Made by a program: the position numbers and the translations under genes. A stretch of 64,000 nt of DNA from assembly GCF_052324685.1 (NCBI RefSeq), contig NC_135212.1, positions 49,620,898 to 49,684,897 of the forward strand. The letters are read 5' to 3'. A model generated the notes under the pieces. It worked only from the letters and a program-made list of their open reading frames with translations, searched no databases and was not told where the DNA came from. The DNA is from Brachyhypopomus gauderio. Taxonomy: Eukaryota; Chordata; Actinopteri; Gymnotiformes; Hypopomidae. Shown here piece after piece: positions 1-64,000 of this stretch (position 1 is the first letter of the stretch; each line of letters begins with the position of its first letter).

Positions 1-122
1 GTGTGTCGATTGCGATTTCAAAGATGCAAACACTTTCACAGCACAAAAGCAGCCGTATATGACTTGTGGGTCCTGCACTTACAACAGGAGACACGATTGT
101 CAGAAATTAAAGAAAGCAACAC
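1..122. repeat. Partial spacer at the left edge
   Basis: The window opens inside a spacer, about 10 bp past its expected left end. It is the 3' flank of the first tRNA copy and has the ATTGCGATTTC form of the left half. The interrupted Pol III tail and the hairpin are present. No gene lies in it. Confidence 0.9.
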
Positions 123-204
123 CGACAAAGGTGGGATTCTAACCCACGCGTGCTATGCACAATGGATTAGCAGTCCATCCCCTTAACCTCTCGGCCACCT
201 CGTC
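123..204 (-). pseudogene. tRNA-Ser(GCT) copy k=0, class K (C56A)
   Basis: T loop reads TTAGAAT instead of TTCGAAT, so the B box core and the G19:C56 tertiary pair are lost. C25G also breaks the D stem, and G4 faces U69. Probably poorly transcribed. Confidence 0.75.
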
Positions 205-258
205 GTTTGTGGTTGTGTGTCGATTGCGATTTCAAAGATGCAAACACTTTCACAGCAC

Positions 259-262
259 AAAA
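259..262 (-). terminator. Backup Pol III terminator TTTT after the hairpin
   Basis: The + strand CACAAAAGG gives CCTTTTGTG on the minus strand, a T4 run 75 nt beyond the tRNA 3' end. It is present in nearly every unit. It could end transcripts that read through the interrupted primary tail. Confidence 0.45.
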
Positions 263-272
263 GGAGGCTTGT

Positions 273-317
273 CTGACTTGTGGGTCCTGCACTTATATCA
301 GGAGACACGATTGTCAG
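273..317 (-). other. Imperfect hairpin downstream of the tRNA (reference unit)
   Basis: The 45 bp form nested inverted arms CTGAC/GTCAG, GTG/CAC and TCCTG/CAGGA, separated by internal loops (TT against GATT, and GG against GA) around a 9-nt loop. It begins 19 nt past the tRNA 3' end. Across units the loop is the most variable part (CACTTATAT, CACTTACAC, CACTTACAA, TAGTTACAG on the + strand) while the inner arms are mostly kept. This is what a structured read-through RNA would show. Folding was done by eye. Confidence 0.5.
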
Positions 318-329
318 AAATTAAAGAAA
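318..329 (-). terminator. Interrupted Pol III terminator TTTCTTTAATTT (majority form)
   Basis: On the minus strand the tail starts 7 nt after the discriminator base. It has no run of four T residues, only T3-C-T3-AA-T3. Pol III normally needs at least T4, so this is a weak or non-canonical signal. Most units, including most consensus copies, carry it. Confidence 0.6.
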
Positions 330-347
330 GCAACACCGACGAAGGTG

Positions 348-358
348 GGATTCGAACC
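348..358 (-). promoter_or_regulatory. Pol III B box in the reference copy
   Basis: GGTTCGAATCC on the minus strand is a perfect match to the B box consensus GGTTCGANNCC, the main TFIIIC contact. The central C at 353 (+ strand g354 side of the TTCGA core) corresponds to C56, which is mutated in the K and D subfamilies. Confidence 0.9.
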
Positions 359-400
359 CACGCGTGCTATGCACAATGGATTAGCAGTCCATCGCCTTAA

Positions 401-411
401 CCTCTCGGCCA
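401..411 (-). promoter_or_regulatory. Pol III A box in the reference copy
   Basis: TGGCCGAGAGG on the minus strand fits the type 2 A box consensus except for A in place of T before the final GG. It spans residues 8-19 of the tRNA. I see no TATA-like motif about 30 bp upstream in the spacer, so these genes appear to rely on internal promoter elements. Confidence 0.85.
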
Positions 412-550
412 CCTCGTCAATTACAGTTGTGTGTCGATTGCGATTTCAAAGATGCAAACACTTTCACAGCACAAAAGCAGCCGTATATGACTTGTGGGTA
501 CTGCACTTACACCAGGAGACACGATTGTCAGAAATTAAAGAAAGCAACAC

Positions 551-632
551 CGACGAAGGTGGGATTCGAACCCACGCGTGCTATGCATAATGGATTAGCA
601 GTCCATCTCCTTAACCTCTCGGCCACCTCGTC
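551..632 (-). tRNA. tRNA-Ser-GCT: tRNA-Ser(GCT) copy k=2, class V
   Basis: Anticodon and promoter boxes are intact. The base of the variable arm has an A:C mismatch (ATGC facing GCAC) and C25A opens the D stem. Confidence 0.7.
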
Positions 633-764
633 AATCACGGTTGTGTGTCGATTGCAATTTCAAAGATGCAAAGACTTTCACAGCACAAAAGGAGGCTTGT
701 CTGACTTGTGGGTCCTGCACTTACATCAGGAGACACGATTGTCAGAAATTTAAAAAAGCAACAC

Positions 765-846
765 CGACGAAGGTGGGATTCGAACCCACGCGATCTATGC
801 AAAATGGATAAGCAGTCCATCACCTTAACCTCTAGGCCACCTCGTC
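765..846 (-). tRNA. tRNA-Ser(GCT)-like copy k=3, class L (A37U)
   Basis: The anticodon loop is CTGCTTA: position 37, normally A and t6A-modified for ANN codons, is U. The variable arm is largely unpaired (TTGC against GATC), so SerRS recognition is doubtful. Tail is T6. Confidence 0.6.
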
Positions 847-965
847 GTTTGTGGTTGTGTGTCGATAGCAATTTCAAAGAAGCAAACACTTTCACAGCAC
901 AAAAGAAGGCTTTTTTGACTTGTGGGTCCTGCACTTACATCAGGAGACACGATTGTCAGAAATTT

Positions 966-971
966 AAAAAA
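966..971 (-). terminator. Canonical T6 terminator (S and L subfamilies)
   Basis: Here the tail reads GC then six T on the minus strand, a good Pol III terminator. The T6 form is found with the L copies (all except k=17 and 23), with the S copies and with k=35. Confidence 0.75.
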
Positions 972-978
972 GCAACAC

Positions 979-1060
979 CGACGAAGGTGGGATTCGAACC
1001 CACGCGTGCTATGCAAAATTGATTAGCAGTCCATCACCTTAACCTCTAGGCCACCTCGTC
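979..1060 (-). tRNA. tRNA-Ser-GCT: tRNA-Ser(GCT) copy k=4, class S
   Basis: The 3' anticodon stem is TCAAT, giving a G29:A41 mismatch. The variable arm keeps 3 bp. B box is intact and the tail is T6. Confidence 0.62.
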
Positions 1061-1192
1061 GTTTGTGGTTGTTTGTCGATTGCGATTTCAAAGATGCAAA
1101 CACTTTCACAGCACAAAAGAAGGCTTATCTGACTTGTGGGTCCTGCACTTACACCAGGAGACACGATTGTCAGAAATTAAAGAAAGCAACAC

Positions 1193-3967: not shown

Positions 3968-3974
3968 GCAACAC

Positions 3975-5126: not shown

Positions 5127-5258
5127 AATTACGGTTGTGTGTCGATTGCGATTTCAAAGAAGCAAGCACTTTCACAGCACAAAAGAAGGCCTTTCTGACT
5201 TGTGGGTCCTGTAGTTACAGCAGGAGACACGATTGTCAGAAATTAAAGAAAGCAACAC

Positions 5259-6196: not shown

Positions 6197-6328
6197 AATT
6201 ACAGTTGTGTGTCGATTGCGATTTCAAAGATGCAAACACTTTCACAGCACAAAAGGAGGCTTATCTGACTTGTGGGTCCTGCACTTATATCAGGAGACAC
6301 GATTGTCAGAAATTAAAGAAAACAACAC

Positions 6329-6410
6329 CGACGAAGGTGGGATTCGAACCCATGCGTGCTATGCACAATGGATTAGCAGTCCATCGCCTTAACCTCTCGG
6401 CCACCTCGTC
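6329..6410 (-). tRNA. tRNA-Ser-GCT: tRNA-Ser(GCT) copy k=29 with G49A
   Basis: One T-stem mismatch, A49 against C65. Block A/B relatives at this place lack it. Confidence 0.75.
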
Positions 6411-6541
6411 AATTACAGTTGTGTGTCGATTGCGATTTCAAAGATGCAAACACTATCACAGCACAAAAGGAGGCTTATCTGATTGTGGGTCCTGCACTTA
6501 TATCAGGAGACACGATTGTCAGAAATTAAAGAAAGCAACAC

Positions 6542-10172: not shown

Positions 10173-10179
10173 GCAACAC

Positions 10180-10261: not shown

Positions 10262-11463
10262 AATTACAGTTGTGTGTCGATTGCGATTTCAAAGATGCAA
10301 ACACTTTCACAGCACAAAAGGAGGCTTATCTGACTTGTGGGTCCTGCACTTACTTCAGGAGACACGATTGTCAGAAATTAAAGAAAACAACACCGACGAA
10401 TGTGGTATTCAAACCCACGCGTGCAAAGCACAATGGATTAGCAGTCCATCGCCTTAACCTCTTGGCTACCTCGTCGCTTGTGGTTTTGTGTCGATTGCGA
10501 TTTCAAAGATGCAAACACTTTCACAGCACAAAAGCAGCCGTATCTGACTTGTGGGTACTGCACTTACACCAGGAGACACGATTGTCAGAAATTAAAGAAA
10601 GCAACACCGACGAAGGTGGGATTCGAACCCACGCGTGCTATGCATAATGGATTAGCAGTCCATCTCCTTAACCTCTCGGCCACCTCGTCAATCACGGTTG
10701 TGTGTCGATTGCGATTTCAAAGATGCAAACACTTTCACAGCACAAAAGGAGGCTTGTCTGACTTGTGGGTCCTGCACTTACATCAGGAGACACGATTGTC
10801 AGAAATTTAAAAAAGCAACACCGACGAAGGTGGGATTCGAACCCACGCGAGCTATGCAAAATGGATAAGCAGTCCATCACCTTAACCTCTAGGCCACCTC
10901 GTCGTTTGTGGTTGTGTGTCGATAGCAATTTCAAAGAAGCAAACACTTTCAAAGCACAAAAGAAGGCTTTTTTGACTTGTGGGTCCTGCACTTACATCAG
11001 GAGACACGATTGTCAGAAATTTAAAAAAGCAACACCGACGAAGGTGGGATTCGAACCCACGCGTGCTATGCAAAATTGATTAGCAGTCCATCACCTTAAC
11101 CTCTAGGCCACCTCGTCGTTTGTGGTTGTTTGTCGATTGCGATTTCAAAGATGCAAACACTTTCACAGCACAAAAGAAGGCTTATCTGACTTGTGGGTCC
11201 TGCACTTACACCAGGAGACACGATTGTCAGAAATTAAAGAAAGCAACACCGACGAAGGTGGGATTCTAACCCACGCGTGCTATGCACAATGGATTAGCAG
11301 TCCATCGCCTTAACCTCTCGGCCACCTCGTCAATTACGGTTGTGTGTCGATTGCGATTTCAAAGATGCAAATACTTTCACAGCACAAAAGGAGGCGTATC
11401 TGACTTGTGGGTCCTGCACTTATATCAGGAGACACGATGGTCAGAAATTAAAGAAAGCAACAC

Positions 11464-11545
11464 CGACGAAGGTGGGATTCGAACCCACGCGTGCTATGCA
11501 CAATGGATTAGCAGTCCATCGCCTTAACCTCTCGGCCACCTCGTC
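11464..11545 (-). tRNA. tRNA-Ser-GCT: tRNA-Ser(GCT) copy k=53, consensus
   Basis: Exact consensus tRNA whose hairpin has GATGG in place of GATTG, a mark that follows this unit through k=73, 81, 97, 144, 160 and their block B partners. Confidence 0.93.
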
Positions 11546-12615
11546 GTTTGTGGTTGTGTGTCGATAGCAATTTCAAAGAAGCAAACACTTTCACAGCACA
11601 AAAGAAGGCTTTTCTGACTTGTGGGTCCTGTAGTTACAGCAGGAGACACGATTGTCAGAAATTAAAGAAAGCAACACCGACGGAGGTGGGATTCGAACAC
11701 ACACGTGCTATGCATAATGGATTAGCAGTCCATCGCCTTAATCTATCGGCCACCTTGTCGTTTGTGCTTGTGTGTCGATTGCGATTTCAAAGATGCAAAC
11801 ACTTTCACAGCACAAAAGCAGCCGTATATGACTTGTGGGTCCTGCACTTACAACAGGAGACACGATTGTCAGAAATTAAAGAAAGCAACACCGACGAAGG
11901 TGGGATTCAAACCCACGCATGCTATGCACAATGGATTAGCAGTCCATGGCCTTAACCTCTCGGCCACCTCGTCAATTACAGTTGTGTGTCGATTGCGATT
12001 TCAAAGATGCAAACACTTTCACAGCACAAAAGGAGGCTTATCTGACTTGTGGGTCCTGCACTTACTTCAGGAGACACGATTGTCAGAAATTAAAGAAAAC
12101 AACACCGACGAATGTGGTATTCAAACCCACGCGTGCAAAGCACAATGGATTAGCAGTCCATCGCCTTAACCTCTTGGCTACCTCGTCGCTTGTGGTTTTG
12201 TGTCGATTGCGATTTCAAAGATGCAAACACTTTCACAGCACAAAAGCAGCCGTATCTGACTTGTGGGTACTGCACTTACACCAGGAGACACGATTGTCAG
12301 AAATTAAAGAAAGCAACACCGACGAAGGTGGGATTCGAACCCACGCGTGCTATGCATAATGGATTAGCAGTCCATCTCCTTAACCTCTCAGCCACCTCGT
12401 CAATCACGGTTGTGTGTCGATTGCGATTTCAAAGATGCAAACACTTTCACAGCACAAAAGGAGGCTTGTCTGACTTGTGGGTACTGCACTTACATCAGGA
12501 GACACGATTGTCAGAAATTTAAAAAAGCAACACCGACGAAGGTGGGATTCGAACCCACGCGAGCTATGCAAAATGGATAAGCAGTCCATCACCTTAACCT
12601 CTAGGCCACCTCGTC

Positions 12616-15600
12616 GTTTGTGGTTGTGTGTCGATAGCAATTTCAAAGAAGCAAACACTTTCACAGCACAAAAGAAGGCTTTTCTGACTTGTGGGTCCTG
12701 TAGTTACAGCAGGAGACACGATTGTCAGAAATTAAAGAAAGCAACACCGACGAAGGTGGGATTCGAACACACACGTGCTATGCATAATGGATTAGCAGTC
12801 CATCGCCTTAATCTATCGGCCACCTTGTCGTTTGTGCTTGTGTGTCGATTGCGATTTCAAAGATGCAAACACTTTCACAGCACAAAAGCAGCCGTATATG
12901 ACTTGTGGGTCCTGCACTTACAACAGGAGACACGATTGTCAGAAATTAAAGAAAGCAACACCGACGAAGGTGGGATTCTAACCCACGCGTGCTATGCACA
13001 ATGGATTAGCAGTCCATCCCCTTAACCTCTCGGCCACCTCGTCGTTTGTGGTTGTGTGTCAATTGCGATTTCAAAGATGCAAACACTTTCACAGCACAAA
13101 AGGAGGCTTATCTGACTTGTGGGTCCTGCACTTATATCAGGAGACACGATTGTCAGAAATTAAAGAAAGCAACACCGACGAAGGTGGGATTCGAACCCAC
13201 GCGTGCTATGCGCAATGGATTAGCAGTCCATCCCCTTAACCTCTTGGCCACCTCGTCGTTTGTGGTTGTGTGTCGATTGCGATTTCAAAGATGCAAACAC
13301 TTTCACAGCACAAAAGGAGGCTTATCTGACTTGTGGGTCCTGCACTTATATCAGGAGACACGATTGTCAGAAATTAAAGAAAGCAACACCGACGAAGGTG
13401 GGATTCGAACCCACGCGTGCTATGCACAATGGATTAGCAGTCCATCGCCTTAACCTCTCGGCCACCTCGTCAATTACAGTTGTGTGTCGATTGCGATTTC
13501 AAAGATGCAAACACTTTCACAGCACAAAAGGAGGCTTATCTGACTTGTGGGTCCTGCACTTATATCAGGAGACACGATTGTCAGAAATTAAAGAAAGCAA
13601 CACCGACGAAGGTGGGATTCGAACCCACGCGTGCTATGCACAATGGATTAGCAGTCCATCGCCTTAACCTCTCGGCCACCTCGTCAATTACAGTTGTGTG
13701 TCGATTGCGATTTCAAAGATGCAAACACTTTCACAGCACAAAAGCAGCCGTATCTGACTTGTGGGTTCTGCACTTACACCAGGAGAAACGATTGTCAGAA
13801 ATTAAAGAAAGCAACACCGACGAAGGTGGGATTCGAACCCACGCGTGCTATGCATAATGGATTAGCAGTTCATCGTCTTAACCTCTCGGCCACCTCGTCA
13901 ATTACAGTTGTGTGTCGATTGCGATTTCAAAGATGCAAACACTTTCACAGCACAAAAGGAGGCTTGTCTGACTTGTGGGTCCTGCACTTACATCAGAAGA
14001 CACGATTGTCAGAAATTTAAAAAAGCAACACCGACGAAGGTGGGATTCGAACCCACGCGTGCTATGCAAAATGGATAAGCAGTCCATCACCTTAACCTCT
14101 AGGCCACCTCGTCGTTTGTGGTTGTGTGTCGATAGCAATTTCAAAGAAGCAAACACTTTCACAGCACAAAAGAAGGCTTTTTTGACTTGTGGGTCCTGTA
14201 GTTACAGCAGGAGACACGATTGTCAGAAATTAAAGAAAGCAACAACGACGAAGGTGGGATTCGAACCCACACGGGCTATGCATAATGGATTAGCAGTCCA
14301 TCGCCTTAATCTCTCGGCCACCTTGTCGTTTGTGGTTGTGTGTCGATTGCGATTTCAAAGATGCAAACACTTTCACAGCACAAAAGCAGCCGTATATGAC
14401 TTGTGGGTACTGCACTTACAACAGGAGACACGATTGTCAGAAATTAAGGAAAGCAACACCGACGAAGGTGGGATTCGAACCCACGCGTGCTATGCACAAT
14501 GGATTAGCAGTCCATCGCCTTAACCTCTCGGCCACCTCGTCAATTACAGTTGTGTGTCGATTGCGATTTCAAAGATGCAAACACTTTCACAGCACAAAAG
14601 GAGGCTTATCTGACTTGTGGGTCCTGCACTTACTTCAGGAGACACGATTGTCAGAAATTAAAGAAAACAACACCGACGAATGTGGTATTCAAACCCACGC
14701 GTGCAAAGCACAATGGATTAGCAGTCCATCGCCTTAACCTCTTGGCTACCTCGTCGCTTGTGGTTTTGTGTCGATTGCGATTTCAAAGATGCAAACACTT
14801 TCACAGCACAAAAGCAGCCGTATCTGACTTGTGGGTACTGCACTTACACCAGGAGACACGATTGTCAGAAATTAAAGAAAGCAACACCGACGAAGGTGGG
14901 ATTCGAACCCACGCGTGCTATGCATAATGGATTAGCAGTCCATCTCCTTAACCTCTCGGCCACCTCGTCAATCACGGTTGTGTGTCGATTGCGATTTCAA
15001 AGATGCAAACACTTTCACAGCACAAAAGGAGGCTTGTCTGACTTGTGGGTCCTGCACTTACATCAGGAGACACGATTGTCAGAAATTTAAAAAAGCAACA
15101 CCGACGAAGGTGGGATTCGAACCCACGCGAGCTATGCAAAATGGATAAGCAGTCCATCACCTTAACCTCTAGGCCACCTCGTCGTTTGTGGTTGTGTGTC
15201 GATAGCAATTTCAAAGAAGCAAACACTTTCAAAGCACAAAAGAAGGCTTTTTTGACTTGTGGGTCCTGCACTTACATCAGGAGACACGATTGTCAGAAAT
15301 TTAAAAAAGCAACACCGACGAAGGTGGGATTCGAACCCACGCGTGCTATGCAAAATTGATTAGCAGTCCATCACCTTAACCTCTAGGCCACCTCGTCGTT
15401 TGTGGTTGTTTGTCGATTGCGATTTCAAAGATGCAAACACTTTCACAGCACAAAAGAAGGCTTATCTGACTTGTGGGTCCTGCACTTACACCAGGAGACA
15501 CGATTGTCAGAAATTAAAGAAAGCAACACCGACGAAGGTGGGATTCTAACCCACGCGTGCTATGCACAATGGATTAGCAGTCCATCGCCTTAACCTCTCG

Positions 15601-16895
15601 GCCACCTCGTCAATTACGGTTGTGTGTCGATTGCGATTTCAAAGATGCAAATACTTTCACAGCACAAAAGGAGGCGTATCTGACTTGTGGGTCCTGCACT
15701 TATATCAGGAGACACGATGGTCAGAAATTAAAGAAAGCAACACCGACGAAGGTGGGATTCGAACCCACGCGTGCTATGCACAATGGATTAGCAGTCCATC
15801 GCCTTAACCTCTCGGCCACCTCGTCGTTTGTGGTTGTGTGTCGATAGCAATTTCAAAGAAGCAAACACTTTCACAGCACAAAAGAAGGCTTTTCTGACTT
15901 GTGGGTCCTGTAGTTACAGCAGGAGACACGATTGTCAGAAATTAAAGAAAGCAACACCGACGGAGGTGGGATTCGAACACACACGTGCTATGCATAATGG
16001 ATTAGCAGTCCATCGCCTTAATCTATCGGCCACCTTGTCGTTTGTGCTTGTGTGTCGATTGCGATTTCAAAGATGCAAACACTTTCACAGCACAAAAGCA
16101 GCCGTATATGACTTGTGGGTCCTGCACTTACAACAGGAGACACGATTGTCAGAAATTAAAGAAAGCAACACCGACGAAGGTGGGATTCAAACCCACGCAT
16201 GCTATGCACAATGGATTAGCAGTCCATGGCCTTAACCTCTCGGCCACCTCGTCAATTACAGTTGTGTGTCGATTGCGATTTCAAAGATGCAAACACTTTC
16301 ACAGCACAAAAGGAGGCTTATCTGACTTGTGGGTCCTGCACTTACTTCAGGAGACACGATTGTCAGAAATTAAAGAAAACAACACCGACGAATGTGGTAT
16401 TCAAACCCACGCGTGCAAAGCACAATGGATTAGCAGTCCATCGCCTTAACCTCTTGGCTACCTCGTCGCTTGTGGTTTTGTGTCGATTGCGATTTCAAAG
16501 ATGCAAACACTTTCACAGCACAAAAGCAGCCGTATCTGACTTGTGGGTACTGCACTTACACCAGGAGACACGATTGTCAGAAATTAAAGAAAGCAACACC
16601 GACGAAGGTGGGATTCGAACCCACGCGTGCTATGCATAATGGATTAGCAGTCCATCTCCTTAACCTCTCAGCCACCTCGTCAATCACGGTTGTGTGTCGA
16701 TTGCGATTTCAAAGATGCAAACACTTTCACAGCACAAAAGGAGGCTTGTCTGACTTGTGGGTACTGCACTTACATCAGGAGACACGATTGTCAGAAATTT
16801 AAAAAAGCAACACCGACGAAGGTGGGATTCGAACCCACGCGAGCTATGCAAAATGGATAAGCAGTCCATCACCTTAACCTCTAGGCCACCTCGTC
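12616..16895. repeat. 4280-bp (20-unit) duplication, copy 2
   Basis: Units k=59-78 repeat k=39-58 with very few changes, such as A to G in the spacer before the second unit. The right edge is marked by different spacers after k=58 (TAGTTACAGC form) and k=78 (CACTTACATC form). Confidence 0.88.
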
Positions 16896-18311
16896 GTTTG
16901 TGGTTGTGTGTCGATAGCAATTTCAAAGAAGCAAACACTTTCACAGCACAAAAGAAGGCTTTTTTGACTTGTGGGTCCTGCACTTACATCAGGAGACACG
17001 ATTGTCAGAAATTTAAAAAAGCAACACCGACGAAGGTGGGATTCGAACCCACGCGTGCTATGCAAAATTGATTAGCAGTCCATCACCTTAACCTCTAGGC
17101 CACCTCGTCGTTTGTGGTTGTTTGTCGATTGCGATTTCAAAGATGCAAACACTTTCACAGCACAAAAGAAGGCTTATCTGACTTGTGGGTCCTGCACTTA
17201 CACCAGGAGACACGATTGTCAGAAATTAAAGAAAGCAACACCGACGAAGGTGGGATTCTAACCCACGCGTGCTATGCACAATGGATTAGCAGTCCATCGC
17301 CTTAACCTCTCGGCCACCTCGTCAATTACGGTTGTGTGTCGATTGCGATTTCAAAGATGCAAATACTTTCACAGCACAAAAGGAGGCGTATCTGACTTGT
17401 GGGTCCTGCACTTATATCAGGAGACACGATGGTCAGAAATTAAAGAAAGCAACACCGACGAAGGTGGGATTCGAACCCACGCGTGCTATGCACAATGGAT
17501 TAGCAGTCCATCGCCTTAACCTCTCGGCCACCTCGTCGTTTGTGGTTGTGTGTCGATAGCAATTTCAAAGAAGCAAACACTTTCACAGCACAAAATAAGG
17601 CTTTTCTGACTTGTGGGTCCTGTAGTTACAGCAGGAGACACGATTGTCAGAAATTAAAGAAAGCAACACCGACGGAGGTGGGATTCGAACACACACGTGC
17701 TATGCATAATGGATTAGCAGTCCATCGCCTTAATCTATCGGCCACCTTGTCGTTTGTGCTTGTGTGTCGATTGCGATTTCAAAGATGCAAACACTTTCAC
17801 AGCACAAAAGCAGCCGTATATGACTTGTGGGTCCTGCACTTACAACAGGAGACACGATTGTCAGAAATTAAAGAAAGCAACACCGACGAAGGTGGGATTC
17901 GAACCCACGCGTGCTATGCACAATGGATTAGCAGTCCATCGCCTTAACCTCTCGGCCACCTCGTCGTTTGTGGTTGTGTGTCGATAGCAATTTCAAAGAA
18001 GCAAACACTTTCACAGCACAAAAGAAGGCTTTTCTGACTTGTGGGTCCTGTAGTTACAGCAGGAGACACGATTGTCAGAAATTAAAGAAAGCAACACCGA
18101 CGGAGGTGGGATTCGAACACACACGTGCTATGCATAATGGATTAGCAGTCCATCGCCTTAACCTCTCGGCCACCTCGTCGTTTGTGGTGGTGTGTCGATT
18201 GCGATTTCAAAGATGCAAACACTTTCACAGCACAAAAGGAGGCTTATCTGACTTGTGGGTCCTGCACTTATATAAGGAGACACGATTGTCAGAAATTAAA
18301 GAAAGCAACAA

Positions 18312-18393
18312 CGACGAAGGTGGGATTCGAACCCACGCGTGCAAAGCACAATGAATTAGCAGTCCATCGCCTTAACCTCTCGGCCACCTCGTC
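18312..18393 (-). tRNA. tRNA-Ser-GCT: tRNA-Ser(GCT) copy k=85, class U with C40U
   Basis: Anticodon stem has G30:U40 wobble; otherwise sound. Recurs at k=202. Confidence 0.8.
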
Positions 18394-18525
18394 GCTTGTG
18401 GTTTTGTGTCGATTGCGATTTCAAAGATGCAAACACTTTCACAGCACAAAAGCAGCCGAATCTGACTTGTGGGTCCTGCACTTACACCAGGAGACACGAT
18501 TGTCAGAAATTAAAAAAAGCAACAC

Positions 18526-18607
18526 CGACGAAGGTGGGATTCGAACCCACGCGTGCAAAGCACAATGGATTAGCAGTCCATCGCCTTAACCTCTCGGCCA
18601 CCTCGTC
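18526..18607 (-). tRNA. tRNA-Ser-GCT: tRNA-Ser(GCT) copy k=86, class U with T7 tail
   Basis: Sound cloverleaf and canonical terminator; likely active type. Confidence 0.92.
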
Positions 18608-18739
18608 AATTATGGTTGTGTGTCGATTGTGATTTCAAAGATGCAAACACTTTCACAGCACAAAAGCAGGCTTGTCTGACTTGTGGGTCCTGCACTTACA
18701 TCAGGAGACACGATTGTCAGAAATTAAAAAAAGCAACAC

Positions 18740-18821
18740 CGACGAAGGTGGGATTCGAACCCACGCGTGCAAAGCACAATGGATTAGCAGTCCATCGCCT
18801 TAACCTCTCGGCCACCTCGTC
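18740..18821 (-). tRNA. tRNA-Ser-GCT: tRNA-Ser(GCT) copy k=87, class U with T7 tail
   Basis: As k=86, but with the GTTTGTGG leader in place of AATTATGG. Confidence 0.92.
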
Positions 18822-20319
18822 GTTTGTGGTTGTGTGTCGATAGCAATTTCAAAGAAGCAAGCACTTTCACAGCACAAAAGAAGGCCTTTCTGACTTGTGG
18901 GTCCTGTAGTTACAGCAGGAGACACGATTGTCAGAAATTAAAGAAAGCAACACCGACGAAGGTGGGATTCGAACCCACAAGTGCTATGCATAATGGATTA
19001 GCAGTCCATCGCCTTACCCTCTCGGCCACCTTGTCGTTTGTGGTTGTGTGTCGATTGCGATTTCAAAGATGCAAACACTTTCACAGCACAAAAGAAGGCT
19101 TATCTGACTTGTGGGTCCTGCACTTACACCAGGAGACACGATTGTCAGAAATTAAAGAAAGCAACACCGACGAAGGTGGGATTCGAACCCACGCGTGCTA
19201 TGCACAATGGATTAGCAGTCCATCGCCTTAACCTCTCGGCCACCTCGTCGTGTGTGGTTGTGTGTCGATAGCAATTTCAAAGAAGCAAACACTTTCACAG
19301 CACAAAAGAAGGCTTTTCTGACTTGTGGGTCCTGTAGTTACAGCAGGAGACACGATTGTCAGAAATTAAAGAAAGCAACACCGACGAAGGTGGGATTCGA
19401 ACACACACGTGCTATGCATAATGGATTAGCAGTCCATCGCCTTAATCTATCGGCCACCTTGTCGTTTGTGCTTGTGTGTCGATTGCGATTTCAAAGATGC
19501 AAACACTTTCACAGCACAAAAGCAGCCGTATATTACTTGTGGGTCCTGGACTTACAACAGGAGACACGATTGTCAGAAATTAAAGAAAGCAACACCGACG
19601 AAGGTGGGATTCTAACCCACGCGTGCTATGCACAATGGATTAGCAGTCCATCCCCTTAACCTCTCGGCCACCTCGTCGTTTGTGGTTGTGTGTCGATTGC
19701 GATTTCAAAGATGCAAACACTTTCACAGCACAAAAGGAGGCTTATCTGACTTGTGGGTCCTGCACTTATATCAGGAGACACGATTGTCAGAAATTAAAGA
19801 AAGCAACACCGACGAAGGTGGGATTCGAACCCACGCGTGCTATGCACAATGGATTAGCAGTCCATCGCCTTAACCTCTCGGCCACCTCGTCGTTTGTGGT
19901 TGTGTGTCGATAGCAATTTCAAAGAAGCAAACACTTTCACAGCACAAAAGAAGGCTTTTCTGACTTGTGGGTCCTGTAGTTACAGCAGGAGACACGATTG
20001 TCAGAAATTAAAGAAAGCAACACCGACGAAGGTGGGATTCGAACCCACGCGTGCTATGCACAATGGATTAGCAGTCCATCCCCTTAACCTCTCGGCCACC
20101 TCGTCGTTTGTGGTTGTGTGTCGATTGCGATTTCAAAGATGCAAACACTTTCACAGCACTAAAGGAGGCTTATCTGACTTGTGGGTCCTGCACTTATATC
20201 AGGAGACACGATTGTCAGAAATTAAAGAAAGCAACACCGACGAAGGTGGGATTCGAACCCACGCGTGCTATGCACAATGGATTAGCAGTCCATCGACTTA
20301 ACCTCTCGGCCACCTCGTC

Positions 20320-24303: not shown

Positions 24304-24385
24304 CGACGAAGGTGGGATTCGAACCCACGCGTGCTATGCACAATGGATTTGCAGTCCATCACCTTAACCTCTCGGCCACCTCATC
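24304..24385 (-). tRNA. tRNA-Ser body with GCA (Cys) anticodon, k=113
   Basis: Loop reads CTGCAAA, so the anticodon at 24350-24352 is GCA, which reads UGC/UGU cysteine codons. The change from GCT is one base, U36A. The rest is consensus apart from U3:G70 and G10:U25 wobbles: the long variable arm GTGC/GCAC, the T arm, the A and B boxes and G73 are intact. SerRS is known to recognise the variable arm and G73 and not the anticodon, so if transcribed this tRNA should carry serine. A35/A36-type identity for CysRS resides partly in GCA and U73, and U73 is absent here. The tail is the interrupted TTTCTTT. An automated anticodon-based call would label it Cys. Confidence 0.9.
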
Positions 24386-44200: not shown

Positions 44201-45357
44201 AACACCGACGAAGGTGGGATTCGAACCCACGCGTGCTATGCACAATGGATTAGCAGTCCATCGCCTTAACCTCTCGGCCACCTCGTCGTGTGTGGTTGTG
44301 TGTCGATAGCAATTTCAAAGAAGCAAACACTTTCACAGCACAAAAGAAGGCTTTTCTGACTTGTGGGTCCTGTAGTTACAGCAGGAGACACGATTGTCAG
44401 AAATTAAAGAAAGCAACACCGACGAAGGTGGGATTCGAACACACACGTGCTATGCATAATGGATTAGCAGTCCATCGCCTTAATCTATCGGCCACCTTGT
44501 CGTTTGTGCTTGTGTGTCGATTGCGATTTCAAAGATGCAAACACTTTCACAGCACAAAAGCAGCCGTATATTACTTGTGGGTCCTGGACTTACAACAGGA
44601 GACACGATTGTCAGAAATTAAAGAAAGCAACACCGACGAAGGTGGGATTCTAACCCACGCGTGCTATGCACAATGGATTAGCAGTCCATCCCCTTAACCT
44701 CTCGGCCACCTCGTCGTTTGTGGTTGTGTGTCGATTGCGATTTCAAAGATGCAAACACTTTCACAGCACAAAAGGAGGCTTATCTGACTTGTGGGTCCTG
44801 CACTTATATCAGGAGACACGATTGTCAGAAATTAAAGAAAGCAACACCGACGAAGGTGGGATTCGAACCCACGCGTGCTATGCACAATGGATTAGCAGTC
44901 CATCGCCTTAACCTCTCGGCCACCTCGTCGTTTGTGGTTGTGTGTCGATAGCAATTTCAAAGAAGCAAACACTTTCACAGCACAAAAGAAGGCTTTTCTG
45001 ACTTGTGGGTCCTGTAGTTACAGCAGGAGACACGATTGTCAGAAATTAAAGAAAGCAACACCGACGAAGGTGGGATTCGAACCCACGCGTGCTATGCACA
45101 ATGGATTAGCAGTCCATCCCCTTAACCTCTCGGCCACCTCGTCGTTTGTGGTTGTGTGTCGATTGCGATTTCAAAGATGCAAACACTTTCACAGCACTAA
45201 AGGAGGCTTATCTGACTTGTGGGTCCTGCACTTATATCAGGAGACACGATTGTCAGAAATTAAAGAAAGCAACACCGACGAAGGTGGGATTCGAACCCAC
45301 GCGTGCTATGCACAATGGATTAGCAGTCCATCGACTTAACCTCTCGGCCACCTCGTC
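35300..45357 (-). repeat. Block B part 1: tRNA copies k=165-211
   Basis: Class order equals k=48-94 shifted by 117 units (25,038 bp). tRNA k starts at 122+214k. k=202 (43350-43431) repeats the C40U copy, and k=203 and 204 (43564, 43778) are class U with T7 tails. Confidence 0.85.
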
Positions 45358-47497: not shown

Positions 47498-50400
47498 GTT
47501 TGTGGTTGTGTGTCGATAGCAATTTCAAAGAAGCAAACACTTTCACAGCACAAAAGAAGGCTTTTTTGACTTGTGGGTCCTGTAGTTACAGCAGGAGACA
47601 CGATTGTCAGAAATTAAAGAAAGCAACAACGACGAAGGTGGGATTCGAACCCACACGGGCTATGCATAATGGATTAGCAGTCCATCGCCTTAATCTCTCG
47701 GCCACCTTGTCGTTTGTGGTTGTGTGTCGATTGCGATTTCAAAGATGCAAACACTTTCACAGCACAAAAGCAGCCGTATATGACTTGTGGGTACTGCACT
47801 TACAACAGGAGACACGATTGTCAGAAATTAAGGAAAGCAACACCGACGAAGGTGGGATTCGAACCCACGCGTGCTATGCACAATGGATTAGCAGTCCATC
47901 GCCTTAACCTCTCGGCCACCTCGTCAATTACAGTTGTGTGTCGATTGCGATTTCAAAGATGCAAACACTTTCACAGCACAAAAGGAGGCTTATCTGACTT
48001 GTGGGTCCTGCACTTACTTCAGGAGACACGATTGTCAGAAATTAAAGAAAACAACACCGACGAATGTGGTATACAAACCCACGCGTGCAAAGCACAATGG
48101 ATTAGCAGTCCATCGCCTTAACCTCTTGGCTACCTCGTCGCTTGTGGTTTTGTGTCGATTGCGATTTCAAAGATGCAAACACTTTCACAGCACAAAAGCA
48201 GCCGTATCTGACTTGTGGGTACTGCACTTACACCAGGAGACACGATTGTCAGAAATTAAAGAAAGCAACACCGATGAAGGTGGGATTCGAACCCACGCGT
48301 GCTATGCATAATGGATTAGCAGTCCATCTCCTTAACCTCTCGGCCACCTCGTCAATCACGGTTGTGTGTCGATTGCGATTTCAAAGATGCAAACACTTTC
48401 ACAGCACAAAAGGAGGCTTGTCTGACTTGTGGGTCCTGCACTTACATCAGGAGACACGATTGTCAGAAATTTAAAAAAGCAACACCGACGAAGGTGGGAT
48501 TCGAACCCACGCGAGCTATGCAAAATGGATAAGCAGTCCATCACCTTAACCTCTAGGCCACCTCGTCGTTTGTGGTTGTGTGTCGATAGCAATTTCAAAG
48601 AAGCAAACACTTTCACAGCACAAAAGAAGGCTTTTTTGACTTGTGGGTCCTGCACTTACATCAGGAGACACGATTGTCAGAAATTTAAAAAAGCAACACC
48701 GACGAAGGTGGGATTCGAACCCACGCGTGCTATGCAAAATTGATTAGCAGTCCATCACCTTAACCTCTAGGCCACCTCGTCGTTTGTGGTTGTTTGTCGA
48801 TTGCGATTTCAAAGATGCAAACACTTTCACAGCACAAAAGAAGGCTTATCTGACTTGTGGGTCCTGCACTTACACCAGGAGACACGATTGTCAGAAATTA
48901 AAGAAAGCAACACCGACGAAGGTGGGATTCTAACCCACGCGTGCTATGCACAATGGATTAGCAGTCCATCGCCTTAACCTCTCGGCCACCTCGTCAATTA
49001 CGGTTGTGTGTCGATTGCGATTTCAAAGATGCAAATACTTTCACAGCACAAAAGGAGGCGTATCTGACTTGTGGGTCCTGCACTTATATCAGGAGACACG
49101 ATGGTCAGAAATTAAAGAAAGCAACACCGACGAAGGTGGGATTCGAACCCACGCGTGCTATGCACAATGGATTTGCAGTCCATCACCTTAACCTCTCGGC
49201 CACCTCATCGTTTGTGGTTGTGTGTCGATAGCAATTTCAAAGAAGCAAGCACTTTCACAGCACAAAAGGAGGCCTTTCTGACTTGTGGGTCCTGTAGTTA
49301 CATCAGGAGACACGATTGTCAGAAATTAAAAAAAGCAACACCGACGAAGGTGGGATTCGAACCCACGCATGCAAAGCACAATGGATTAGCAGTCCATCGC
49401 CTTAACCTCTCGGCCACCTCGTCAATTATGGTTGTGTGTCGATTGTGATTTCAAAGATGCAAACACTTTCACAGCACAAAAGCAGGCTTGTCTGACTTGT
49501 GGGTCCTGCACTTACATCAGGAGACACGATTGTCAGAAATTAAAAAAAGCAACACCGACGAAGGTGGGATTCGAACCCACGCGTGCAAAGCACAATGGAT
49601 TAGCAGTCCATCACCTTAACCTCTCGGCCACCTCATCGTTTGTGGTTGTGTGTCGATAGCAATTTCAAAGAAGCAAGCACTTTCACAGCACAAAAGAAGG
49701 CCTTTCTGACTTGTGGGTCCTGTAGTTACAGCAGGAGACACGATTGTCAGAAATTAAAGAAAGCAACACCGACGAAGGTGGGATTCGAACCCACGCGTGC
49801 TATGCACAATGGATTAGCAGTCCATCGCCTTAACCTCTCGGCCACCTCGTCAATTACGGTTGTGTGTCGATTGCGATTTCAAAGATGCAAATACTTTCAC
49901 AGCACAAAAGGAGGCTTATCTGACTTGTGGGTCCTGCACTTATATCAGGAGACACGATTGTCAGAAATTAAAGAAAGCAACACCGACGAAGGTGGGATTC
50001 GAACCCACGCGTGCTATGCACAATGGATTAGCAGTCCATTGCCTTAACCTCTCGGCCACCTCGTCGTTTGTGGTTGTGTGTCGATAGCAATTTCAAAGAA
50101 GCAAACACTTTCACAGCACAAAAGCAGCCGTATATGACTTGTTGGTCCTGCACTTACAACAGGAGACACGATTGTCAGAAATTAAAGAAAGCAACACAGA
50201 CGAAGGTGGGATTCGAACCCACGCGTGCTATGCACAATGGATTAGCAGTCCATCCCCTTAACCTCTTGGCCACCTCGTCGTTTGTGGTTGTGTGTCGATT
50301 GCGATTTCAAAGATGCAAACACTTTCACAGCACAAAAGGAGGCTTATCTGACTTGTGGGTCCTGCACTTATATCAGGAGACACGATTGTCAGAAATTAAA

Positions 50401-50921: not shown

Positions 50922-53900
50922 GTTTGTGGTTGTGTGTCGATAGCAATTTCAAAGAAGCAAACACTTTCACAGCACAAAAGAAGGCTTTTTTGACTTGTTG
51001 GTCCTGTAGTTACAGCAGGAGACACGATTGTCAGAAATTAAAGAAAGCAACAACGACGAAGGTGGGATTCGAACCCACACGGGCTATGCATAATGGATTA
51101 GCAGTCCATCGCCTTAATCTCTCGGCCACCTTGTCGTTTGTGGTTGTGTGTCGATTGCGATTTCAAAGATGCAAACACTTTCACAGCACAAAAGCAGCCG
51201 TATATGACTTGTGGGTACTGCACTTACAACAGGAGACACGATTGTCAGAAATTAAGGAAAGCAACACCGACGAAGGTGGGATTCGAACCCACGCGTGCTA
51301 TGCACAATGGATTAGCAGTCCATCGCCTTAACCTCTCGGCCACCTCGTCAATTACAGTTGTGTGTCGATTGCGATTTCAAAGATGCAAACACTTTCACAG
51401 CACAAAAGGAGGCTTATCTGACTTGTGGGTCCTGCACTTACTTCAGGAGACACGATTGTCAGAAATTAAAGAAAACAACACCGACGAATGTGGTATACAA
51501 ACCCACGCGTGCAAAGCACAATGGATTAGCAGTCCATCGCCTTAACCTCTTGGCTACCTCGTCGCTTGTGGTTTTGTGTCGATTGCGATTTCAAAGATGC
51601 AAACACTTTCACAGCACAAAAGCAGCCGTATCTGACTTGTGGGTACTGCACTTACACCAGGAGACACGATTGTCAGAAATTAAAGAAAGCAACACCGATG
51701 AAGGTGGGATTCGAACCCACGCGTGCTATGCATAATGGATTAGCAGTCCATCTCCTTAACCTCTCGGCCACCTCGTCAATCACGGTTGTGTGTCGATTGC
51801 GATTTCAAAGATGCAAACACTTTCACAGCACAAAAGGAGGCTTGTCTGACTTGTGGGTCCTGCACTTACATCAGGAGACACGATTGTCAGAAATTTAAAA
51901 AAGCAACACCGACGAAGGTGGGATTCGAACCCACGCGAGCTATGCAAAATGGATAAGCAGTCCATCACCTTAACCTCTAGGCCACCTCGTCGTTTGTGGT
52001 TGTGTGTCGATAGCAATTTCAAAGAAGCAAACACTTTCACAGCACAAAAGAAGGCTTTTTTGACTTGTGGGTCCTGCACTTACATCAGGAGACACGATTG
52101 TCAGAAATTTAAAAAAGCAACACCGACGAAGGTGGGATTCGAACCCACGCGTGCTATGCAAAATTGATTAGCAGTCCATCACCTTAACCTCTAGGCCACC
52201 TCGTCGTTTGTGGTTGTTTGTCGATTGCGATTTCAAAGATGCAAACACTTTCACAGCACAAAAGAAGGCTTATCTGACTTGTGGGTCCTGCACTTACACC
52301 AGGAGACACGATTGTCAGAAATTAAAGAAAGCAACACCGACGAAGGTGGGATTCTAACCCACGCGTGCTATGCACAATGGATTAGCAGTCCATCGCCTTA
52401 ACCTCTCGGCCACCTCGTCAATTACGGTTGTGTGTCGATTGCGATTTCAAAGATGCAAATACTTTCACAGCACAAAAGGAGGCGTATCTGACTTGTGGGT
52501 CCTGCACTTATATCAGGAGACACGATGGTCAGAAATTAAAGAAAGCAACACCGACGAAGGTGGGATTCGAACCCACGCGTGCTATGCACAATGGATTTGC
52601 AGTCCATCACCTTAACCTCTCGGCCACCTCATCGTTTGTGGTTGTGTGTCGATAGCAATTTCAAAGAAGCAAGCACTTTCACAGCACAAAAGGAGGCCTT
52701 TCTGACTTGTGGGTCCTGTAGTTACATCAGGAGACACGATTGTCAGAAATTTAAAAAAGCAACACCGACAAAGGTGGGATTCGAACCCACGCATGCAAAG
52801 CACAATGGATTAGCAGTCCATCGCCTTAACCTCTCGGCCACCTCGTCAATTATGGTTGTGTGTCGATTGTGATTTCAAAGATGCAAACACTTTCACAGCA
52901 CAAAAGCAGGCTTGTCTGACTTGTGGGTCCTGCACTTACATCAGGAGACACGATTGTCAGAAATTAAAAAAAGCAACACCGACGAAGGTGGGATTCGAAC
53001 CCACGCGTGCAAAGCACAATGGATTAGCAGTCCATCACCTTAACCTCTCGGCCACCTCATCGTTTGTGGTTGTGTGTCGATAGCAATTTCAAAGAAGCAA
53101 GCACTTTCACAGCACAAAAGAAGGCCTTTCTGACTTGTGGGTCCTGTAGTTACAGCAGGAGACACGATTGTCAGAAATTAAAGAAAGCAACACCGACGAA
53201 GGTGGGATTCGAACCCACGCGTGCTATGCACAATGGATTAGCAGTCCATCGCCTTAACCTCTCGGCCACCTCGTCAATTACGGTTGTGTGTCGATTGCGA
53301 TTTCAAAGATGCAAATACTTTCACAGCACAAAAGGAGGCTTATCTGACTTGTGGGTCCTGCACTTATATCAGGAGACACGATTGTCAGAAATTAAAGAAA
53401 GCAACACCGACGAAGGTGGGATTCGAACCCACGCGTGCTATGCACAATGGATTAGCAGTCCATTGCCTTAACCTCTCGGCCACCTCGTCGTTTGTGGTTG
53501 TGTGTCGATAGCAATTTCAAAGAAGCAAACACTTTCACAGCACAAAAGCAGCCGTATATGACTTGTTGGTCCTGCACTTACAACAGGAGACACGATTGTC
53601 AGAAATTAAAGAAAGCAACACAGACGAAGGTGGGATTCGAACCCACGCGTGCTATGCACAATGGATTAGCAGTCCATCCCCTTAACCTCTTGGCCACCTC
53701 GTCGTTTGTGGTTGTGTGTCGATTGCGATTTCAAAGATGCAAACACTTTCACAGCACAAAAGGAGGCTTATCTGACTTGTGGGTCCTGCACTTATATCAG
53801 GAGACACGATTGTCAGAAATTAAAGAAAGCAACACCGACGAAGGTGGGATTCGAACCCACGCGTGCTATGCACAATGGATTAGCAGTCCATCGCCTTAAC

Positions 53901-61967: not shown

Positions 61968-62049
61968 CGACGAAGGTGGGATTCGAACCCACAAGTGCTA
62001 TGCATAATGGATTAGCAGTCCATCGCCTTACCCTCTCGGCCACCTTGTC
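61968..62049 (-). tRNA. tRNA-Ser(GCT) copy k=289, class W
   Basis: Same acceptor (A4:C69), D-loop and variable-arm changes as k=37. Confidence 0.62.
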
Positions 62050-62181
62050 GTTTGTGGTTGTGTGTCGATTGCGATTTCAAAGATGCAAACACTTTCACAG
62101 CACAAAAGAAGGCTTATCTGACTTGTGGGTCCTGCACTTACACCAGGAGACACAATTGTCAGAAATTAAAGAAAGCAACAC

Positions 62182-62263
62182 CGACGAAGGTGGGATTCGA
62201 ACCCACGCGTGCTATGCACAATGGATTAGCAGTCCATCGCCTTAACCTCTCGGCCACCTCGTC
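62182..62263 (-). tRNA. tRNA-Ser-GCT: tRNA-Ser(GCT) copy k=290, consensus
   Basis: Exact consensus; a private change lies in the hairpin arm (CACAATTG). Confidence 0.93.
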
Positions 62264-62395
62264 GTGTGTGGTTGTGTGTCGATAGCAATTTCAAAGAAGC
62301 AAACACTTTCACAGCACAAAAGAAGGCTTTTCTGACTTGTGGGTCCTGTAGTTACAGCAGGAGACACGATTGTCAGAAATTAAAGAAAGCAACAC

Positions 62396-62477
62396 CGACG
62401 AAGGTGGGATTCGAACACACACGTGCTATGCATAATGGATTAGCAGTCCATCGCCTTAATCTATCGGCCACCTTGTC
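62396..62477 (-). pseudogene. tRNA-Ser(GCT) copy k=291, class H
   Basis: G15T/G19A D loop and T-stem 52:62 mismatch. Confidence 0.74.
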
Positions 62478-62609
62478 GTTTGTGCTTGTGTGTCGATTGC
62501 GATTTCAAAGATGCAAACACTTTCACAGCACAAAAGCAGCCGTATATTACTTGTGGGTCCTGCACTTACAACAGGAGACACGATTGTCAGAAATTAAAGA
62601 AAGCAACAC

Positions 62610-62691
62610 CGACGAAGGTGGGATTCTAACCCACGCGTGCTATGCACAATGGATTAGCAGTCCATCCCCTTAACCTCTCGGCCACCTCGTC
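62610..62691 (-). pseudogene. tRNA-Ser(GCT) copy k=292, class K with C25G
   Basis: C56A in the B box; D stem opened. Confidence 0.75.
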
Positions 62692-62823
62692 GTTTGTGGT
62701 TGTGTGTCGATTGCGATTTCAAAGATGCAAACACTTTCACAGCACAAAAGGAGGCTTATCTGACTTGTGGGTCCTGCACTTATATCAGGAGACACGATTG
62801 TCAGAAATTAAAGAAAGCAACAC

Positions 62824-62905
62824 CGACGAAGGTGGGATTCGAACCCACGCGTGCTATGCACAATGGATTAGCAGTCCATCGCCTTAACCTCTCGGCCACC
62901 TCGTC
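62824..62905 (-). tRNA. tRNA-Ser-GCT: tRNA-Ser(GCT) copy k=293, consensus
   Basis: Exact consensus. Confidence 0.94.
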
Positions 62906-63037
62906 GTTTGTGGTTGTGTGTCGATAGCAATTTCAAAGAAGCAAACACTTTCACAGCACAAAAGAAGGCTTTTCTGACTTGTGGGTCCTGTAGTTACAGC
63001 AGGAGACACGATTGTCAGAAATTAAAGAAAGCAACAC

Positions 63038-63119
63038 CGACGGAGGAGGGATTCGAACACACACGTGCTATGCATAATGGATTAGCAGTCCATCGCCTTA
63101 ACCTCTCGGCCACCTCGTC
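63038..63119 (-). pseudogene. tRNA-Ser(GCT) copy k=294, H-hybrid
   Basis: Normal D arm and 5' acceptor strand, but the T arm of class H with a further 3' T-stem change, so the T stem is badly paired. Confidence 0.72.
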
Positions 63120-63251
63120 GTTTGTGGTGGTGTGTCGATTGCGATTTCAAAGATGCAAACACTTTCACAGCACAAAAGGAGGCTTATCTGACTTGTGGGT
63201 CCTGCACTTATATAAGGAGACACGATTGTCAGAAATTAAAGAAAGCAACAC

Positions 63252-63333
63252 CGACGAAGGTAGGATTCGAACCCACGCGTGCTATGCACAATGGATTAGC
63301 AGTCCATCGCCTTAACCTCTCGGCCACCTCGTC
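63252..63333 (-). tRNA. tRNA-Ser-GCT: tRNA-Ser(GCT) copy k=295, near consensus
   Basis: Single change giving a G51:U63 wobble in the T stem. Confidence 0.88.
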
Positions 63334-63465
63334 GTTTGTGGTTGTGTGTCGATAGCAATTTCAAAGAAGCAAACACTTTCACAGCACAAAAGCGGCCGTA
63401 TATGACTTGTGGGTCCTGCACTTACAACAGGAGACACGATTGTCAGAAATTAAAGAAAGCCACAC

Positions 63466-63547
63466 CGACGAAGGTGGGATTCGAACCCACGCGTGCTATG
63501 CACAATGGATTAGCAGTCCATCCCCTTAACCTCTCGGCCACCTCGTC
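63466..63547 (-). tRNA. tRNA-Ser-GCT: tRNA-Ser(GCT) copy k=296 with C25G
   Basis: D-stem G10:G25 mismatch; otherwise consensus. Confidence 0.75.
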
Positions 63548-63679
63548 GTTTGTGGTTGTGTGTCGATTGCGATTTCAAAGATGCAAACACTTTCACAGCA
63601 CAAAAGGAGGCTTGTCTGACTTGTGGGTCCTGCACTTACATCAGGAGACACGATTGTCAGAAATTTAAAAAAGCAACAC

Positions 63680-63761
63680 CGACGAAGGTGGGATTCGAAC
63701 CCACGCGAGCTATGCAAAATGGATAAGCAGTCCATCACCTTAACCTCTAGGCCACCTCGTC
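63680..63761 (-). tRNA. tRNA-Ser(GCT)-like copy k=297, class L (A37U)
   Basis: Loop CTGCTTA; the variable arm keeps only two pairs; T6 tail. Confidence 0.6.
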
Positions 63762-63893
63762 GTTTGTGGTTGTGTGTCGATAGCAATTTCAAAGAAGCAA
63801 ACACTTTCACAGCAAAAAAGAAGGCTTTTTTGACTTGTGGGTCCTGCACTTACATCAGGAGACACGATTGTCAGAAATTTAAAAAAGCAACAC

Positions 63894-63975
63894 CGACGAA
63901 GGTGGGATTCGAACCCACGCGTGCTATGCAAAATTGATTAGCAGTCCATCACCTTAACCTCTAGGCCACCTCGTC
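63894..63975 (-). tRNA. tRNA-Ser-GCT: tRNA-Ser(GCT) copy k=298, class S
   Basis: Last complete copy. G29:A41 mismatch in the anticodon stem; T6 tail. Confidence 0.62.
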
Positions 63976-64000
63976 GTTTGTGGTTGTGTGTCGATTGCGA
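63976..64000. repeat. Partial spacer at the right edge
   Basis: First 25 bp of the next spacer (GTTTGTGG leader, ATTGCGA form). The array continues beyond the window. Confidence 0.9.

Follow-up and report, generated by a model that had tools for sequence, protein, structure and literature searches.

A tandem array of 214-bp tRNA-Ser(GCT) units in Brachyhypopomus gauderio that evolves like a satellite

The 64,000-nucleotide stretch of Brachyhypopomus gauderio DNA analysed here (the window) is occupied from its first to its last position by one tandem array, for which TRF reported a period of 214, 299.1 copies, 92% matches and 0% indels. ARAGORN predicted 299 tRNA genes in the window, all on the minus strand, 296 of them tRNA-Ser(GCT) and three tRNA-Cys, the latter so called because their anticodon reads GCA. 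The same number was obtained with the Rfam tRNA model RF00005 (149 + 150 matches at or above its gathering score of 29 bits, with scores of 30.1–64.8 bits), and the gene-to-gene spacing was 214 bp at 297 of the 298 intervals and 213 bp at the remaining one (Table 1). Rfam matches to Plastid-psbl-rps4 and mascRNA were discarded, as they overlap the tRNAs and score below their own gathering scores. These results agree with the preliminary description of the locus as a 64-kb array of 299 equally oriented copies in 214-bp units; its statement that only tRNA-Ser(GCT) genes are present holds for 296 copies and fails for the three with a GCA anticodon. A homogeneous tDNA cluster is described as one isoacceptor family with neighbours less than 1,000 nt apart (PMC2888827), and both the spacing and the composition of the window correspond to such a cluster, three copies carrying an altered anticodon. 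The long head-to-tail series of near-identical units in a single orientation also corresponds to a satellite.

Table 1. Coordinates of the array and of selected features within the window
Feature	Position	Strand	Evidence and remarks
Tandem array of 214-bp units, each a tRNA gene plus spacer	1..64000	-	TRF, ARAGORN, spacing, Rfam; any transcription would run leftwards
Example of an exact-consensus tRNA-Ser(GCT) gene, 82 nt	337..418	-	Sequence, Rfam (63.9 bits), consensus
Example of a 132-bp spacer between neighbouring tRNA genes	419..550	-	Coordinates
Sole 213-bp unit interval of the window (others 214)	6326..6538	-	Spacing
46-unit block, first copy	10332..20175	-	Repeats 25,038 bp rightward (lag 117 units, 0 differences)
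Serine-type tRNA with anticodon GCA (called tRNA-Cys)	24303..24386	-	ARAGORN; 58.3 bits
46-unit block, second copy	35370..45213	-	0 differences from first copy
Serine-type tRNA with anticodon GCA (called tRNA-Cys)	49127..49210	-	ARAGORN; 58.3 bits
Serine-type tRNA with anticodon GCA (called tRNA-Cys)	52551..52634	-	ARAGORN; 58.3 bits

The window forms part of an array of ~410–444 kb situated close to the end of contig C2, and a second array of like kind is located on C40, a 2.26-Mb scaffold. A search of the assembly with the unit core returned 3,518 matches (places listed for 100 of them), of which 3,516 lie on one strand, and from these same-strand matches it is estimated that the two arrays jointly hold roughly 3,900 units. 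The other two matches are single sites, and the opposite-strand search of the assembly yielded just these two, both damaged relics. A tRNA-derived SINE, which would be dispersed and present in both orientations, was ruled out by this strand distribution. Within the sequence patterns used, no clearly intact tRNA-Ser(GCT) gene was found outside the arrays on C2 and C40. On C2 the left edge of the array runs into non-array DNA, and at its right end the window is directly followed by a run of 5,000 Ns, whose length does not fit the register of the units (5,266 mod 214 = 130). The array carries four different inserts; one interruption measures 1,997 bp. No more than about 0.5 Mb separates the array from the end of C2, in the last 2 kb of which no telomere repeat array was found. 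Comparison of a 750-bp piece at C40:53,201, which adjoins TTAA-flanked non-array sequence, with five flanking loci of the C2 array gave matches to array units only. Further tRNA arrays, along with a 5S array, are present in the genome.

To a large extent the units retain the features of a serine tRNA gene, namely a cloverleaf with a long variable arm and a GCT anticodon, the latter being kept in 1,104 of 1,108 units, and the discriminator base G73, a serine identity element, is G in 1,088 of them. The 1,108 units fall into 277 distinct haplotypes, the commonest of which is a perfect tRNA: one identical tRNA-Ser(GCT) with all 24 of 24 pairs formed is present in 247 of 1,113 analysed units, and 978 exact-consensus copies, all on the same strand, occur in the assembly. 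In the window, 72 of the 298 units analysed are exact consensus, in keeping with the quarter that had been given for them. The accompanying characterisation of the other copies as decayed was partly upheld, in that only 380 of 1,108 copies in the wider array retain all 24 stem pairs and every conserved base considered; it is a relative term, because all 299 window copies are still recognised as tRNA. The tRNA of the array carries ATA in its variable loop and GAGAGG in its D loop. The T-loop C is altered in 205 of 1,113 copies. A run of four or more Ts is situated 6–8 nt downstream in 384 of 1,113 units, and in 240 of the 247 exact-consensus units the first four-T run occurs only 74 nt downstream. 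Some units contain a T7 run, and TTTCTTT is a candidate terminator. A lower incidence of nearby terminators among intact tRNAs (p = 5e-8 over copies) is not claimed as a link, because p is 0.10 over unique units.

The array evolves like a satellite. Constraint on the tRNA part was sought by comparing its variability with that of the spacer and was not found, either over all sites (57/82 variable in the tRNA versus 87/132 in the spacer, p = 0.65) or with CpG sites removed (40/65 versus 80/125, p = 0.75). Pairing is preserved by 12 of 57 observed stem changes versus 25 of 144 possible ones, indicating no bias toward pairing, and a search for compensatory stem changes produced no two-sided case. 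Weak trends in the opposite direction are present: the GCT anticodon persists in 1,104 of 1,108 copies, 1.35 pairs are lost per haplotype versus 1.45 +/- 0.07 in the null, and the mean variant frequency is 0.035 in the tRNA versus 0.052 in the spacer (rank test p = 0.56). Transitions were present at 20/24 CpG sites versus 25/79 for the comparison (Fisher p = 3e-4 on presence), with p = 0.64 for transversions, and such an excess of CpG transitions is the usual scar of germline methylation. The observed/expected CpG ratio of the window, 0.91, exceeds what would be expected of methylated DNA, an effect of the abundance of CpG in the tRNA part. The CpG transition excess bears only indirectly on heterochromatic packaging. 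A silent array would account equally well for the CpG scars and for the broken copies.

Homogenisation by exchange is evident in near-exact blocks of 8–50 units that recur along the array, as well as in segments of ~25 kb that bring a transposon along; recurring blocks of eight or more units take in 965 of 1,113 units. Neighbouring units are no more similar to each other than random pairs. A fixed higher-order repeat was considered on account of a local 6-unit period at the left of the window and rejected, since the lag profiles display slight peaks, none of which is dominant. The earlier view of the locus as intermediate between gene cluster and satellite is thus supported by the predominance of the perfect tRNA, a tRNA as variable as its spacer and the recurring multi-unit blocks.

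Tandem tRNA arrays are already known in zebrafish, blue catfish, Nippostrongylus, human and Entamoeba, and it is scale, purity and satellite-like evolution that distinguish the present one. The rarity implied by the preliminary description was overstated, since large tandem or clustered tRNA arrays have been published for nematode, zebrafish, stickleback and blue catfish (further sources: PMC3706591, PMC10071708) and since other tRNA arrays exist in the same genome. In the nematode Nippostrongylus brasiliensis, the so-called very long complex tandem repeats likewise consist of a single tRNA gene with a short unique spacer in massive tandem repetition: tRNA-Ser, whose spacer is 80 bp long, is present in ~90 copies, and a tRNA-Trp unit of ~200 bp in nearly 150 (PMC5765664); however, these copies are tens of times fewer, and constraint, CpG and block structure are not covered in the available text of that source. 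Zebrafish, also a teleost, has repetitive clusters that comprise thousands of tRNA genes, chiefly on the long arm of chromosome 4, with nearly all gene pairs parallel (PMC11417395, PMC11075544, PMC2888827), and 5S arrays in the same genome, but most of its neighbouring pairs are heterogeneous (K-N, K-S and R-T being most frequent), whereas in the present array a single isoacceptor, repeated in 214-bp units, extends over hundreds of kb. The blue catfish arrays are likewise tandem tRNA arrays of a fish; they lie near chromosome ends and leave assembly gaps; they are mentioned in passing, in the available passage without isoacceptor, unit or copy number. The human 1q23.3 variable-number tandem repeat also bears tRNA genes and has an unstable copy number (9–43 units per allele), yet its units measure 7.3 kb and tRNA genes make up less than 6% of each (PMC4041453). 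Entamoeba, a protist, has tRNA genes in tandem arrays as well, though in 25 unit types with up to five tRNA genes each and short tandem repeats between genes (PMC2652664).

The reading that we favour, with a probability of roughly 0.55, is that tandem amplification of a tRNA-Ser(GCT) gene gave rise to a gene satellite, whose function is kept by numbers and which is used mainly in the ovary and early embryo. Amplification would have started from the gene together with its own 132-bp flank, after which unequal crossing-over or conversion would have left the recurring blocks seen on the assembly. Copy number, rather than constraint on each unit, would then maintain function, such that the hundreds of identical intact copies may constitute a reservoir for Pol III-transcribed tRNA, with damaged copies as passengers. 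The cell may obtain its supply of this tRNA from the array, perhaps chiefly in eggs; the suggested use in ovary and early embryo follows the analogy of zebrafish, in which highly repetitive tRNA clusters give rise to the egg isodecoders and scattered genes to the later ones (PMC11417395). A stronger version appears doubtful, namely that this vertebrate draws its entire Ser(GCT) supply from a methylated satellite of nearly megabase size, in which selection is not detectable on any single unit, copy number alone sustains function, damaged units are amplified with intact ones and no working gene exists elsewhere.

A dead tRNA-derived satellite in silent heterochromatin, with intact copies representing the ancestral or youngest state and tRNA-Ser(GCT) provided by genes missed by the patterns, would fit the undetectable constraint, the CpG scars, the altered T-loop C and the distance of most intact copies from a T-run. 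We nevertheless regard it as rather unlikely, since a perfect tRNA is the most frequent haplotype and an essential tRNA needs a gene, of which the patterns used revealed none that is clearly intact beyond the arrays. It is also improbable that the assembly has greatly inflated the copy number, for instance by representing two haplotypes separately as C2 and C40 or by duplicating the exact blocks. The similar array on C40, the length of the exact blocks and the out-of-phase N run, as expected of an arbitrary scaffold gap, point in that direction; however, the 277 haplotypes, the four inserts and the junction of the left edge with non-array DNA indicate that an array of hundreds of units holds even if the total were halved. 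Lastly, the Pol III sites could be the active part of a chromatin boundary, replication-fork barrier or chromosome-end structure, as hinted at by the proximity to the end of C2 and by the proposal of the human tRNA tandem repeat as a boundary element (PMC4041453). Such a non-tRNA role is very improbable, as no test made here points to it and the end of C2 lacks a telomere repeat array over its last 2 kb.

As a caution, tRNA dosage is not to be read from the predicted number of tRNA genes. Gene and satellite are here the same sequence, which directly poses the question of how an essential function persists with freely drifting, block-amplified units. The presence of roughly 3,900 units in distinct subfamilies would allow transcribed copies to be told apart, and the system could show whether, in fishes besides zebrafish, eggs and early embryos are served by repetitive tRNA arrays.

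The preliminary description had read the window as a satellite of 299 tRNA-Ser(GCT) genes. TRF analysis identified a single array with a period of 214 bp and 299.1 copies spanning all 64,000 bases, while ARAGORN called 299 tRNAs, none of them on the plus strand, 296 being Ser(GCT) and three having anticodon GCA. All 299 (149 and 150 per half) reached the Rfam tRNA gathering score, at 30.1 to 64.8 bits, and 297 of the 298 unit-to-unit intervals measure 214 bp. The array is real and not explicable by chance, and its extent exceeds what had been reported. Each unit consists of an 82-nt tRNA and a 132-bp spacer. In the consensus tRNA, 24 of 24 stem positions are paired, the variable arm is GTGC-ATA-GCAC and the discriminator is G. 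A split T-run (TTTCTTT) lies downstream; among the 247 exact-consensus units, 240 have their first stretch of at least four T residues beginning 74 nt downstream, and such a stretch lies 6–8 nt downstream in 384 of 1,113 units overall.

On contig C2, where the window occupies 49,620,898–49,684,897, the array starts on the left at 49,480,597 and was still found at about 49,890,165, while samples at 49,470,898 and 49,924,898 were without it; contiguous reading covered 49,473,898–49,744,897, and the region further right was assessed by samples. The contiguous part holds six interruptions, measured unit to unit (5,227 bp twice, 3,499, 3,493, 2,565 and 1,997 bp). Exactly 5,000 N occupy 49,684,898–49,689,897, from the first base past the window. 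The phase of the units is not kept across this run (5,266 mod 214 = 130), which makes an arbitrary scaffold gap its probable origin, although withheld sequence would appear as N too. A second array was found on contig C40 (2,256,775 bp) at 53,670, 400,001 and 421,001, with matches listed up to 479,069, samples at 530,001 and 600,001 being free of it. Across the assembly (796.5 Mb, 840 contigs), there are 978 exact matches to the 82-nt consensus, on the reverse strand throughout, while a 26-nt core, allowing at most two mismatches, has 3,516 reverse-strand matches versus two forward. Since 90.7% of the 1,113 analysed C2 units match this core, the assembly holds about 3,900 (3,875) units, which would agree with both array lengths provided that C40 is filled throughout. 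The first 100 of the 3,518 matches, those listed by place, fall on C2, C3, C14 and C40, and other contigs could also carry reverse-strand copies.

Both forward-strand matches are damaged relics, on C3 and C14, sharing the D-loop T of the vertebrate type and a TCT variable loop absent among the 1,113 array units, while their 3' halves differ widely. Their Rfam scores (35.0 and 31.1 bits) are barely over the cut-off, and neither was called as a tRNA by ARAGORN under bacterial settings. A vertebrate-type 43-mer had no match in the assembly, a TCT-loop 25-mer matched the C3 site only, and no clearly intact tRNA-Ser(GCT) gene was found outside the arrays by the core, 43-mer and 25-mer patterns. The relics may be a trace of a former dispersed gene type. 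Other tRNA clusters were identified among 63 of 74,024 candidates scored, with one gene typed per place, and 5S rRNA sites among 47 of 24,554; two further 5S sites, on C28 and C469, had lower scores. RAG1 was found in the assembly, split by about 0.9 kb; together with repeats of a kind known from teleosts, it suggests that the host is a bony fish.

Locations of elements, relics, other small-RNA arrays and GCA-anticodon copies
Feature	Location	Remarks
piggyBac-like elements	C2:49,484,021 and 49,508,936	TTAA ends, in spacer, 99.98% alike
piggyBac-like elements	C2:49,717,446 and 49,723,941	TTAA ends, in spacer, 99.8% alike
Damaged tRNA-Ser(GCT) relic	C3:23,827,967	forward-strand core match
Damaged tRNA-Ser(GCT) relic	C14:6,449,985	forward-strand core match
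Thr(TGT) tRNA cluster	C7:23.22-24.29 Mb	spacings multiples of about 1,219 bp
Thr(TGT) tRNA cluster	C4:23.03-23.06 Mb	
Lys(TTT) tRNA cluster	C71:47-514 kb	
Cys(GCA) tRNA array or cluster	C2:47.6 Mb	
5S rRNA array	C14:8,569,299-8,626,107	spacing about 1,087 bp
tRNA copy, anticodon GCA	window 24303-24386	
tRNA copy, anticodon GCA	window 49127-49210	
tRNA copy, anticodon GCA	window 52551-52634	

To describe variation, about 1,115 anchors yielded 1,113 units after removal of those at ends or touching N, and a set of 1,108 excluded five of less than 88% identity. The units fell into 277 distinct sequences and their tRNA parts into 132; the commonest tRNA (247 copies) was the consensus, from which the others of the 25 commonest differ by 1–8 substitutions. 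The T-loop C is altered in 205 of 1,113 units, while all stem pairs and all bases on a list of conserved positions are intact in 380 of 1,108. Variable sites are equally frequent in tRNA (57/82) and spacer (87/132), likewise without CpG (40/65 versus 80/125). Of the 57 distinct stem changes, 12 preserved pairing, versus 25 of 144 possible ones, and no two-sided compensatory change was found among the array units. Relative to redistributed substitutions, haplotypes had 1.35 lost pairs (versus 1.45 ± 0.07) and 0.42 conserved-base hits (versus 0.48 ± 0.06); the GCT anticodon is retained in 1,104 of 1,108 units, and mean variant frequency is 0.035 in the tRNA and 0.052 in the spacer (rank test p 0.56). 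These last four measures show weak trends toward constraint, against a satellite-like reading.

Transition variants at a frequency of 0.2% or more were present at 20 of 24 CpG positions versus 25 of the 79 remaining C/G positions (for presence at all, Fisher p 3e-4), with transversions alike at both (p 0.64); germline methylation would be expected to leave such an excess. CpG observed/expected ratios of 0.51 and 0.49 were obtained for the spacer consensus and for six flank samples (25 kb), against 1.21 for the tRNA consensus and 0.91 for the window as a whole.

Pairs differing at two positions or fewer were as frequent among adjacent units (3.2%) as among random pairs (3.3%). We identified 108 block pairs of 8–50 units in which corresponding units differ at no more than one position, covering 965 of 1,113 units; one 46-unit block in the window has a second copy 25 kb away with zero differences. 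The two 5,227-bp segments, 24.9 kb apart, are identical at 5,226 positions (99.98%), and the 3,499/3,493-bp pair is 99.8% alike. Provided that the assembly is correct, this is recent block-wise exchange. Both segment pairs encode a DDE_Tnp_1_7 transposase, a piggyBac-family enzyme; a reverse transcriptase is encoded in the 2,565-bp interruption. The piggyBac-like elements were duplicated along with array blocks.

Tandem tRNA gene arrays are a known kind of locus, and this array is one of them. Published accounts record about 90 tRNA-Ser copies in tandem and nearly 150 of tRNA-Trp in N. brasiliensis (PMC5765664), clustering of 65% of tDNAs in zebrafish and 87% in stickleback, with teleost clusters of fifty and more (PMC2888827), most zebrafish tRNA genes in Region-2 of chromosome 4, beside maternal 5S and snRNA genes (PMC11075544), and rDNA and tRNA tandem arrays close to chromosome ends in blue catfish (PMC10071708). 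What sets the present array apart is its scale, its purity, the size of its unit and its satellite-like evolution, and literature searched mostly outside subscription journals yielded no description of a vertebrate single-isoacceptor tRNA array of comparable size. All three serine-type copies with anticodon GCA are located inside recurring blocks; were they aminoacylated with serine, they would decode a cysteine codon. The array may supply the cellular pool of tRNA-Ser(GCT), possibly above all in eggs.
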